From: Sulfitobacter mediterraneus
GTDB lineage: Bacteria; Pseudomonadota; Alphaproteobacteria; Rhodobacterales; Rhodobacteraceae
NCBI RefSeq assembly: GCF_003054325.1
Contig: NZ_QBKU01000008.1
Coordinates: forward strand, 62,001 to 126,000
Length of the DNA stretch: 64,000 bases
Reading direction: 5' to 3'
Below, in pieces: positions 14,607-17,829 of the stretch. A model generated the notes under the pieces. It had not been told where the DNA came from, did not search any database, and saw only the letters and a list, made by a program, of their open reading frames with translations. Within the stretch, counting starts at the first letter, position 1; the number at the start of each line of letters is the position of its first letter. The position numbers and the translations under genes are program-made.

Positions 14607-14617
14607 TCGAAGCCTTT

Positions 14618-14687
14618 GTAACATTCCTCACACGGGGCCGTTTGCGCGGCCCCGTTTTTTGTGGGCCTGTAACATTTCACACGGGCC
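14618..14687 (+). repeat. Short direct repeat flanking the thrS terminator
   Basis: GTAACATTCCTCACACGGGG at 14618-14637 and GTAACATTTCACACGGGCC at 14669-14687 are near copies on either side of the terminator stem. The left copy overlaps the 5' arm of the hairpin. It may be a local duplication or two binding sites ahead of the bufferin operon. Confidence 0.5.
14632..14660 (+). terminator. Intrinsic terminator of thrS
   Basis: An 8-bp GC stem (CGGGGCCG and CGGCCCCG) with a short loop is followed directly by TTTTTT (14655-14660), 26 bases past the thrS stop. Confidence 0.92.
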
Positions 14688-14834
14688 AAACGCCAAAATC
14701 GCAACAAATCCCCCGAATTTTCCGGCAAATCCTGACAGGATCGTGACACACTCCCTCGTGAGTGGTGTTAGCTTGGGTTGAATGCTTTACTATTCCCATC
14801 ACCCGTTGATTTGACCACTAAAGGAAGTTTTTAC

Positions 14835-15137
14835 ATGTCCAACACACTCAAATCCGTCGCGCTTGCAGGCGCCGTTGCCGCAGCAATGACCGCCCAAACC
14901 ACCACAGCTGAGGCGGCCTCAAAAGAGAAATGCTATGGTGTCTCTCTGGCCGGTGAAAACGACTGTGCCGCAGGTCCAGGCACAACATGCGCGGGTACAT
15001 CCGTCACCGATTATCAGGGCAACGCCTGGACCTTGGTCGACGCCGGCACATGCGACAGCATTGACCTGCCCGCCATGGCAGACGGTTCCGCGCGCAAAGG
15101 CTCGCTCGAAGCACTCGACCGCGACCTGCCTGCATAA
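14835..15137 (+). CDS. bufA: Bufferin-type RiPP precursor (DUF2282)
   Basis: A 100-residue precursor with a Sec-type signal peptide ([20 protein letters not shown], cleavage likely after AEA at about 27). The exported part has exactly four cysteines: Cys33 in EKCYGV, Cys44 in NDCAAG, Cys52 in TTCAG and Cys73 in GTCDSI. This is the DUF2282 pattern of bufferins. In that class an MNIO enzyme modifies cysteines to sulfur-containing heterocycles, and the product binds copper in the periplasm (established for the family, inferred here). ATG at 14835 follows AAGGAAG. It is the first gene of the operon and is followed by a hairpin, which suits a highly expressed precursor. Confidence 0.88.
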
Positions 15138-15144
15138 GACATTT

Positions 15145-15175
15145 GTTCCGGGCGGCCCCTGCGGCGGCCCGGAAC
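15145..15175 (+). promoter_or_regulatory. Intercistronic hairpin between bufA and bufB
   Basis: GTTCCGGGC (15145-15153) and GCCCGGAAC (15167-15175) form a perfect 9-bp stem 8 bases after the precursor stop. There is no T-tract, so it is more likely an mRNA-stabilising or partial attenuation structure that lets the precursor be made in excess of the enzymes. This role is inferred. Confidence 0.6.
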
Positions 15176-15201
15176 ACCTTTGCTCCACCGGAGGGCGCAT
15201 C

Positions 15202-16050
15202 ATGCTCGACACGCGGCCCCGATTTGACCAGCTGCCAAATGCAGCCGGAATCGGATACAAACCCCAACATTTTCAAGAGCTTCTGGATGATCCCGGCGCT
15301 GTTGAATGGGTTGAGGTTCATGCCGAAAACTACATGGGTGACGGCGGACGCCCCTTGGCCCAGTTGCAGGCTTTGTCAGAAACCTTTGCGATCTCCATTC
15401 ATGGCGTAGGCCTGTCCATCGGCGGCCAGCAACCGCTTGATAAGGCACATCTAAATCGGCTCAAACGCCTGTGCGACCGCATCAAACCCGCCAGCTTCTC
15501 AGAACATCTTGCTTGGTCCACTCATGGCGCGGAATTCATGAATGATCTGCTACCCCTGCCCTATACAGCAGAAACACTGACCCTCGTGAGCGACCATATC
15601 AATCAGGTACAGGACACATTGGGCCGTCAAATGCTGCTCGAAAACCCGTCCAGCTATCTGGCTTTTGTCGAGTCCACCTTTTCAGAAGCAGACTTTTTAT
15701 CAGAAGTTACCCACAAGACCGCCTGCGGTCTCTTGCTGGATGTGAATAATGTCTTCATTTCATCCACAAATCTGGATCTCAGCCCGCAATCCTATATTGA
15801 TGCCTATCCTACCGACTGTGTTGGCGAGATCCATGTGGGCGGCCATGACGAAGACGAGGATGATTTTGGCGCGCCTCTGTTAATTGACAGCCACGCCAAG
15901 CCCGTAGTTGATCCGGTTTGGTCTTTGCTGACCTACGCACTTGCACAAACCGGACCGAAACCGGTTTTGGTGGAGTGGGACAACGATATTCCGCCTTGGC
16001 CCACCCTCAGGGACGAAGCCAAACGCGCCGCGATGGCCCTTGCAGGATGA
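15202..16050 (+). CDS. bufB: MNIO (DUF692) RiPP-modifying oxidase, BufB-like
   Basis: A 282-aa TIM-barrel member of the multinuclear non-heme iron oxidases. The probable metal ligands are in family order: EVHAEN (His40, Glu42), SIHGVG (His67), SFSEHLAW (Glu101, His102), LENPSSYL (Glu147), LDVNN (Asp180), EIHVGGHD (His211, His215), DSH (Asp229, His231) and VEWDND (Glu258). Such enzymes oxidise precursor cysteines together with a DUF2063-type partner. ATG at 15202 follows GGAGG; an upstream in-frame extension overlaps bufA and is not conserved. It overlaps bufC by ATGA. Confidence 0.93.
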
Positions 16051-16790
16051 CCAAAGCAGAACAATTTCGCGCAGGCTTGCTGGACCCGGCACTGGCGGTC
16101 CCAGACGGCCTGATCGACGGCAAAAGCCAACCGGCGGGCCGCAGATATGACGTCTATCGCAACAATGTCACCACCTCGCTTTGTGAGGCGCTCTCAACTG
16201 CATTCCCATTGGTCCGCAAGCTGATTGGTCCACAGAATTTCGACAATCTTGCGCCGCTTTTCGTTCGAAACCACCCCCCCAAGTCACCACTCATGATGCA
16301 CTATGGCATTGATTTTCCAGTATTTATAAAGAACTTCGCACCCCTTGCGCATATTGGATACTTGGCTGACGCTGCGCGGCTTGATCAGGCGCTACGCCGC
16401 TCATATCACGCCGCAGATGCCCCAGCCTTTGACCCAAGCGGACTGCAAACCATGGCCCCTGATGCGTTGTCGGAAATGCAAATTCAGCTTGCTCCATCCA
16501 GCCTGATATTGCGATCTGAATGGCCTCTCTACGACATCTGGCGGTTCAATAATGAAGATGGCGCTCCCAAACCGCAGGCTGTTGCACAGGATATCCTGAT
16601 CACTCGGCCAGAATTTGATCCACAGCCATGGTTGCTGCCCTCGGGGGCGGCGATTTGGCTGGAGGCCATGGCCCAAGGCCAGACTTTTGGTGCGGCGCAT
16701 GACCTCACCTTAGCACAGATGCCTGATTTTGATCTCACCGCCGCTCTTACAACGGCCCTCACATCCCAGGCCTTTAAAGAAACCCCGTAA
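16047..16790 (+). CDS. bufC: DUF2063 RiPP partner protein, BufC-like
   Basis: A 247-aa protein whose N-terminal half matches the DUF2063 pattern: FRAGLLDP, then [19 protein letters not shown] and FPLVRKLIG. In MNIO systems this subunit holds the precursor and activates the oxidase; older annotation calls it a putative DNA-binding protein. The start overlaps the bufB stop (ATGA, 16047-16050), indicating equal, coupled synthesis of the two subunits. The C-terminal half ([14 protein letters not shown] onward) is the domain that usually follows in this family. Confidence 0.9.
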
Positions 16791-16799
16791 GGAACTGAT

Positions 16800-17342
16800 A
16801 TGAAACCTCTTATCTCTCTGCATGACGCAGTCTTTTCCAAACTTGAACAGGCCAATTGGCTGCTTCCAACCCTCGCAAGGTTCCTTTTTGCAGCTGTCCT
16901 GCTGGTCTATTTCCTCAACTCCGGCCTCACCAAAATCGGAGATGGGGTGTCTGGTCTGTGGACACCTTCCGTAGGGGCCTACGCCCAAATCTTCCCGCGC
17001 GTTCTCGAAGAGGCCGGCTATGACACGGACGCACTTGGACTTTTCCACCGGTTGATCGTGCTGGCAGGAACATGGGCGGAGTTCATTTTGCCTGCATTGA
17101 TTGTCGTTGGCTTGCTCACCCGCCTTGCAGCCCTCGGAATGATCGGCTTTATCGCGGTGCAATCGCTCACCGACATCTATGGCCACGGTCAGGGCGGCGT
17201 ATTAGGCGCATGGTTCGACCGTTTTCCAGACGCGGTCATCATGGACCAGAGGGCCTTGTGGGTGCTTTTGTTGTTGGTTCTGGTCGTCAAAGGCGCGGGG
17301 CCTTTGTCCTTCGACCGGGCCTTGAAGCGCGGCAGCATCTGA
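16800..17342 (+). CDS. DoxX family membrane protein, BufD-like
   Basis: A 180-aa integral membrane protein with about four hydrophobic segments (roughly 22-42, 80-100, 105-120, 148-165). A long insert between helices 1 and 2 carries SGLTKIGD and WTPSVGAYAQI. DoxX proteins often close DUF2282-DUF692-DUF2063 operons; a redox or membrane-electron role has been proposed but not proven. It begins 9 bases after bufC and is followed by a strong hairpin, so it is the last gene of the operon. Confidence 0.88.
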   Translation: MKPLISLHDAVFSKLEQANWLLPTLARFLFAAVLLVYFLNSGLTKIGDGVSGLWTPSVGAYAQIFPRVLEEAGYDTDALGLFHRLIVLAGTWAEFILPALIVVGLLTRLAALGMIGFIAVQSLTDIYGHGQGGVLGAWFDRFPDAVIMDQRALWVLLLLVLVVKGAGPLSFDRALKRGSI

Positions 17343-17355
17343 CGTTTTAGACAAC

Positions 17356-17380
17356 GCTGGCGCGTCTGTGTCGCGCCAGC
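17356..17380. terminator. Hairpin between convergent bufD and arsC-like genes
   Basis: A perfect 9-bp stem, GCTGGCGCG and CGCGCCAGC, with a 7-nt loop. No long T-run follows on either strand, but the position between two convergent stops suggests a shared terminator. Confidence 0.65.
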
Positions 17381-17388
17381 CGCCCCCC

Positions 17389-17712
17389 CTAACTCAATGC
17401 TTGAACTTCCTGCTCTATCTCTTTGTTCCAAGACAGGAAAAGTGCGTTATCCACAACAATCAATGGCCGCTTCATCAGGGCCGGATGGGTTTTGATCAAC
17501 GTCAACGGATCGCCTTGACGCTCTTCCTCGCTCAGCCCTCTCCAAGTCGTGGAACGCGTGTTCAAAAGCGCCGCACCAAATTTCTGATGGGCCGCAGACA
17601 ACACCGCATCAGGAACGCCATCAACACGTACATCAACAAGTGTAGCTTCGGGCAATGCCTTCATCGCCTTTCGGCATGTATCGCAGTTCTTCAGGCCATA
17701 TATTTGCATCAT
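17389..17712 (-). CDS. ArsC/Spx-family thioredoxin-fold protein
   Basis: A 107-residue protein that begins MMQIYGLKNCDTCRKAM: a thioredoxin-like fold with a CxxC at the active position, as in the YffB/ArsC-like group. It continues with NTRSTTWRGLSEEE and MKRPLIVVDN, which are conserved in that group. It may reduce a small thiol substrate, but arsenate reductase activity should not be assumed. AGAGAG lies upstream; the second Met at 17709 is an equal choice. It is convergent with the bufferin operon and not part of it. Confidence 0.85.
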   Translation of the reverse strand: MMQIYGLKNCDTCRKAMKALPEATLVDVRVDGVPDAVLSAAHQKFGAALLNTRSTTWRGLSEEERQGDPLTLIKTHPALMKRPLIVVDNALFLSWNKEIEQEVQALS

Positions 17713-17829
17713 TTTCTCTCTTCTTTTGGCGCTCTCTGTGAAATTTGAACAAAATTTTTCGCGATTTACTTGATTTTTCTCCCGATTGCGCAATCCTTTC
17801 TACTGTAGGGCGCGCCGGAATGGTTTGGC

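Follow-up and report, generated by a model that had tools for sequence, protein, structure and literature searches.

Upstream of a bufferin operon in Sulfitobacter mediterraneus we found a conserved tandem-palindrome element which is probably the binding site of a regulator, and whose distribution suggests that this regulator is not the SigF-NrsF system. The operon lies in a stretch of 64,000 nt (assembly GCF_003054325.1, contig NZ_QBKU01000008.1, positions 62,001–126,000), here called the window, to which all coordinates refer. Four genes at 14835–17342 encode on one strand, in this order, a DUF2282 precursor, an MNIO (DUF692) oxidase, a DUF2063 partner protein and a DoxX protein. We have little doubt that they form a Buf1-type bufferin operon. 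The element is located at 14732–14765 on the same (+) strand.

The first gene, bufA (14835–15137, +), encodes the Buf1 bufferin precursor of 100 amino acids with Cys33, Cys44, Cys52 and Cys73 (PF10048, E = 3.2e-23). Its signal-peptide-like N-terminus, inspected by eye, contains Lys6, a subsequent hydrophobic stretch and the residues A-E-A-A near positions 25–28, and BufA is accordingly predicted to be exported by a signal peptide of the Sec type. The gene bufB (15202–16050, +) encodes the putative MNIO bufferin maturase of 282 amino acids (PF05114, E = 5.9e-103). It is followed by bufC (16047–16790, +) for the DUF2063 partner of 247 amino acids (PF09836, E = 7e-23), and by doxX (16800–17342, +) for a DoxX-family membrane protein of 180 amino acids (PF07681, E = 2.5e-6, 28.5 bits versus a cut-off of 23.6). 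The original prediction, made from the DNA sequence alone, had placed this operon exactly to the base and had named its genes in the order given here. The four cysteines of the precursor are present in the bufA reading frame as claimed, and bufC indeed overlaps the end of bufB at 16050 by ATGA.

In a profile search all four proteins scored above the Pfam cut-offs for DUF2282, MbnB_TglH_ChrH (DUF692/MNIO), DUF2063 and DoxX, respectively. BufB also exceeded the cut-off of the NCBIfam model NF050167 "MNIO family bufferin maturase" (MNIO_BufB) with 370.2 versus 310 bits, and on this ground the operon was assigned to the Buf1 type; the models HvfB, ApyH, MbnB and ChrH gave scores below their cut-offs. 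The NCBIfam search yielded no match for the BufA precursor and only matches below cut-off for BufC and the DoxX protein (HvfC, HvfX). BufB could be aligned to the solved protein 3bww of Histophilus somni (Protein Data Bank, PDB; E = 4.4e-41); a weaker alignment was obtained with MbnB, and the conserved His/Glu/Asp blocks were in register. A PDB sequence search with BufC, whose C-terminal part would be of the RRE type, found no match. Of the full His/Glu/Asp ligand set which had been claimed for the oxidase, the conserved blocks were confirmed by alignment; some of these residues would hold the iron. The bufferin-type reading of the original prediction is supported by the NF050167 score, the DUF2282 precursor and the published core of bufferin clusters, which according to PMC12452194 consists of precursor, MNIO, DUF2063 and DoxX genes. 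The genome of S. mediterraneus (39 contigs) contains a single MNIO-family match and a single DUF2282 match. An Rfam scan of the window gave no match.

Gene content, gene order, family membership and conservation were observed directly. In a sample of 149 genomes of the same family, 107 contained a bufA match at E ≤ 0.001, the weakest of which, for example that in genome G068, are doubtful. Because bufA homologues are this frequent, the operon is an ordinary example of an already described, common type. To the extent covered by the DNA, 109 related loci shared this gene order: 78 loci contained all four genes, and in the remaining 31 the locus or contig ends before the missing gene. Since the same genes recur in the same order, the operon is not a product of chance. 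The cysteine spacing 11-8-21 was found in 110 of 110 BufA sequences (109 loci and the window), a set picked by similarity to the BufA of the window and therefore biased, with one species possibly represented twice. The closest bufA genes among named records belong to Sulfitobacter, Thalassococcus and Tateyamaria. Precursor matches were also present on 246 of 72,556 plasmid records (e.g., NZ_CP116077.1), 60 of them from Escherichia and 108 predicted to be conjugative; among the rows listed, the Escherichia plasmid matches were 54.7–60.6% identical to the BufA of the window.

Within the 300 nt before bufA the element was the single strong motif of 110 upstream regions, and 103 of these contained a site scoring above 18. 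The first base of these 103 sites is located 93–169 nt before the bufA start codon. The element can be read as two tandem palindromes, TNACR-N4-YGTGA-N-NCACR-N4-YGTGA-N-TGG, and the strict pattern TNAC-N6-GTGA-N2-CAC-N6-GTGA occupies positions 14733–14761. Among 102 distinct sequences the core columns carried 1.3–2 bits and the flanks mostly less than 0.2 bits. Many relatives possess an extra TCACR half-site upstream of the element, which is absent in the window. In the first palindrome the base opposite G was not conserved as a pairing partner, so the element was taken as a DNA site and its reading as an RNA structure was rejected. Two further observations concern this region. Words of the TGTAACA type are frequent in the 300 nt upstream of bufA; CTGTAACA occurred in 63 of the 110 regions, and such words were found at 14609–14690 in the window and in relatives. 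At one related locus (L054, 4001–5164) bufA is duplicated in tandem, and both copies have an upstream element of their own, that of the second copy as read from the sequence.

At a fixed spacing from the element a -10-like box (14784–14793, +) marks a putative promoter; conservation at +52 to +60 was moderate in the 102 distinct sequences. A scan of the region for sigma-70-type promoters found none, compared with 1.4 ± 1.2 in shuffled sequences. This absence would be compatible with the element being the extended promoter of an extracytoplasmic function (ECF) sigma factor other than SigF instead of an activator site, with the -35 box in the last GTGA-N-TGG and the -10 box about 18 nt further on. 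The GTGA-N-TGG block is among the most conserved parts and stands at a -35-like distance from the -10-like box. However, both palindromes are conserved, and many relatives have in addition the extra half-site, which lies farther upstream than any -35 box; a sigma factor alone would not require so extended a site. We regard the extended promoter as unlikely, and consider it probable that the element is a regulator site.

The strict pattern was found once in the genome of S. mediterraneus, before bufA, and sites with one mismatch were not found there. In the 149 family genomes it occurred 41 times, compared with 0 times for the reversed control, and 39 of the 41 exact matches end 66–108 nt before a bufA match. 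The other two lie in genomes without a bufA match. One (L133) precedes an L,D-transpeptidase-like gene; the other (L138) is flanked by an msrA-like gene and a divergently oriented aminotransferase-like gene, on the strand leading away from msrA, all names being taken from reading the translations. These two matches were dismissed as meaningful sites, as by our arithmetic about 4 would be expected by chance, the reversed control having yielded 0. Among 385 genomes of the class the strict pattern was present in 7, three of which are family members with buf genes, and the reversed control in 1.

A model of the element, based on sequence only and built from 65 gapless sequences of buf upstream regions, detected 60 sites in the 149 genomes at E ≤ 0.001. 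All of them lie in buf operons, 59 before bufA and one, in genome G063, between bufA and bufB. The sites before bufA increased to 63 genomes at E ≤ 0.01 and 66 genomes at E ≤ 0.1. For a model trained on buf upstream regions finding buf operons is unsurprising; the near-absence of other strong hits is informative.

The two buf operons of Caulobacter are SigF-dependent, with the promoter GTAACC-N16-CGAA and the anti-sigma factor NrsF, as described in PMC3511200. Table 1 of that paper lists for the operons CC3254–CC3257 and CC2907–CC2905 of Caulobacter crescentus/vibrioides the DUF2282, DUF692/MNIO, DUF2063 and (CC3257) DoxX genes in the order found here. In contrast to these operons, the one in S. 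mediterraneus carries a different conserved element, its genome gave no NrsF match, and no SigF-type promoter was found before bufA, where the nearest sequence, GTAACA-N16-CGCC at 14669, has three mismatches. Control of this operon by SigF was rejected on the missing NrsF match and the missing promoter, a SigF-like sigma factor itself not having been searched for.

NrsF scored above its cut-off in 21 of the 149 family genomes, 16 of which contain bufA. It was located within 3 kb of bufA in 12 genomes, and a distance of 6 kb likewise covered only 12 of the 107 bufA genomes. Among these 107, the element (E ≤ 0.1, before bufA) was present in 66 and NrsF in 16, with an overlap of 0. The hypergeometric chance of this result is 2e-8, a value that makes the exclusion look stronger than it is, since relatedness is not taken into account. 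Four of five scanned NrsF loci (L164–L167) contained GTAACN-N16-CGAA, by position 80–100 nt before bufA; it was missing from the fifth (L163), where, however, bufA lies on a different contig. The lack of overlap between element and NrsF therefore suggests that another regulator than SigF-NrsF acts through the element. Apparently, two control modes exist in the family, which may reflect either replacement of one by the other or two old lineages of the operon. Tentatively, and with slightly more doubt than belief, we propose replacement: the roseobacter bufferin operon would have left SigF-NrsF for a buf-dedicated activator which recognises two tandem TCACR-N4-YGTGA palindromes directly before the -10 box and has essentially one target promoter per genome.

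The same exclusion could arise without any regulatory replacement in descent, if an operon beside thrS and an operon beside nrsF were two separate lineages. Where NrsF lies close to bufA (12 genomes), the bufA product scored 67–140 bits against the BufA of the window, below most element-bearing genomes, and the NrsF-type and element-type operons may be old, separate lineages. The bufA score ranges of both groups overlap, however, and under either descent the control sequence of the lineage with the element is a different one. Descent as two lineages is a serious possibility, which falls a little short of an even chance.

Several observations weigh against a dedicated regulator acting through the element. 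Seven of the 110 upstream regions lack a site scoring above 18, and in 25 of the 107 bufA genomes both NrsF and an element upstream of bufA are missing, G063 with its element between bufA and bufB being one of these. At relaxed thresholds sites appear elsewhere: the model yields 3 at E ≤ 0.01, a number that rises at E ≤ 0.1 to 22, about as many as the E-value predicts. The window contains 8 matches with up to 3 mismatches, compared with 3.3 ± 1.75 in shuffled sequences. With up to two mismatches the whole genome gave 22 rows versus 5 for the reversed control, 20 of them away from bufA; by our arithmetic about 26 would be expected under equal base frequencies. A wider regulon in this genome was rejected, given the single strict match, the lack of one-mismatch sites and two-mismatch rows near this expectation. 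A single palindrome as search pattern was discarded as too frequent to inform (56 versus 39 in the reversed control). No regulator gene was recognised among the recurrent neighbours of the operon, which were listed without profile annotation. Furthermore, of the 78 loci that include 2 kb or more upstream of bufA, 77 have a thrS match there, and with such fixed synteny a part of the upstream conservation could reflect relatedness; the flanking columns of the element, being nearly without information, temper this explanation. A literature search, with most subscription papers outside its scope, found no account of bufferin regulation in roseobacters, and PMC12617631 contained nothing on bufferins.

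For the Buf1 bufferins PMC12452194 describes DUF2282 precursors with four conserved cysteines and Sec signal peptides, in which modification affects the central cysteines and a disulfide links the first to the last. PMC13097082 assigns 5-thiooxazoles to bufferin 1 of Caulobacter and supports a role in copper handling. By analogy, BufA would be made in the cytoplasm, BufB and BufC would oxidise the central Cys44 and Cys52 to 5-thiooxazoles, and the modified BufA would be exported by Sec. The outer Cys33 and Cys73 would form a disulfide, and mature BufA would sequester copper in the periplasm. Modification, export, disulfide and copper binding are carried over here from published work on relatives. 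The same assignment of the cysteines had been made in the original prediction; it agrees with what PMC12452194 reports for Buf1, and is already published for this family. The DoxX protein would be an accessory membrane protein; its gene, present in this cluster, is common but not obligatory in Buf1 operons.

Alternatively, a bufferin-like product could serve mainly against another envelope stress, such as other metals or oxidants, with copper binding being secondary. In Caulobacter, chromium (and cadmium) elicit a response of the buf operons via SigF, together with a sulfite-oxidase-like gene (PMC3511200), and the authors of PMC12452194 suggest other stresses from DoxX genes and MerC fusions. 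Here a single neighbour, the convergent ArsC-family gene, might hint at another chemical element, and we consider a main function other than copper handling improbable.

Transcription would start from a promoter belonging to the operon itself, located a few tens of bases upstream of bufA, and would be switched on via the element at 14732–14765 by a regulator other than SigF-NrsF. Between bufA and bufB a hairpin without T tail is located at 15144–15176 (+). The 60 nt after bufA folded with -32.5 kcal/mol (z = -2.7), and versus dinucleotide shuffles 83 of 108 distinct loci had a z below -2 (mean z -2.95), compared with 7 of 109 loci (mean z -0.32) for a control stretch inside bufB. As judged by eye the stem sequence varies between genera whereas the stem itself is kept. 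The hairpin after bufA is likely to keep the bufA mRNA above that of the enzymes, which would fit a precursor.

MNIO, a DUF2063-type partner and DoxX are also common to the oxazolin/captophorin clusters (HvfA-B-C-X of Haemophilus influenzae, fontiphorin), whose cysteines are converted to 5-thiooxazoles according to PMC13097082 and PMC13419390. Their precursors contain EGKCG repeats, whereas the BufA described here has none; the HvfB model scored 239.9 bits on BufB versus a cut-off of 360, and the HvfC and HvfX models likewise remained below cut-off. Compared with methanobactin MbnB-MbnC, MbnB and BufB belong to the same enzyme superfamily, but the MbnB model scored far below its cut-off on BufB (50.6 versus 325 bits) and the partner here is a DUF2063 protein.

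A terminator-like hairpin after thrS (14632–14655, +), formed by a 10-pair stem with TTTTT directly behind it, is the probable boundary between thrS and the buf operon. The terminator scan of the region found 5 terminator-like sites versus 3.4 ± 2.0 in shuffled sequences, so that the count alone is no evidence. At the downstream end the predicted hairpin was confirmed in so far as 17356–17380 (+), between the convergent doxX and ArsC-family genes, folds with -19.2 kcal/mol (z = -2.47). It has no T tail, is not listed by the terminator scan and is not a textbook terminator. The ArsC-family gene (17389–17793, opposite to doxX), putatively Spx/YffB-like, was matched in 69 of the 74 loci that extend 1 kb or more beyond doxX.

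Taken by itself, the operon does no more than add another marine alphaproteobacterium to the probable producers of a Buf1 bufferin. The element, one promoter with one 34-bp site, provides a precise handle for finding the bufferin regulator.
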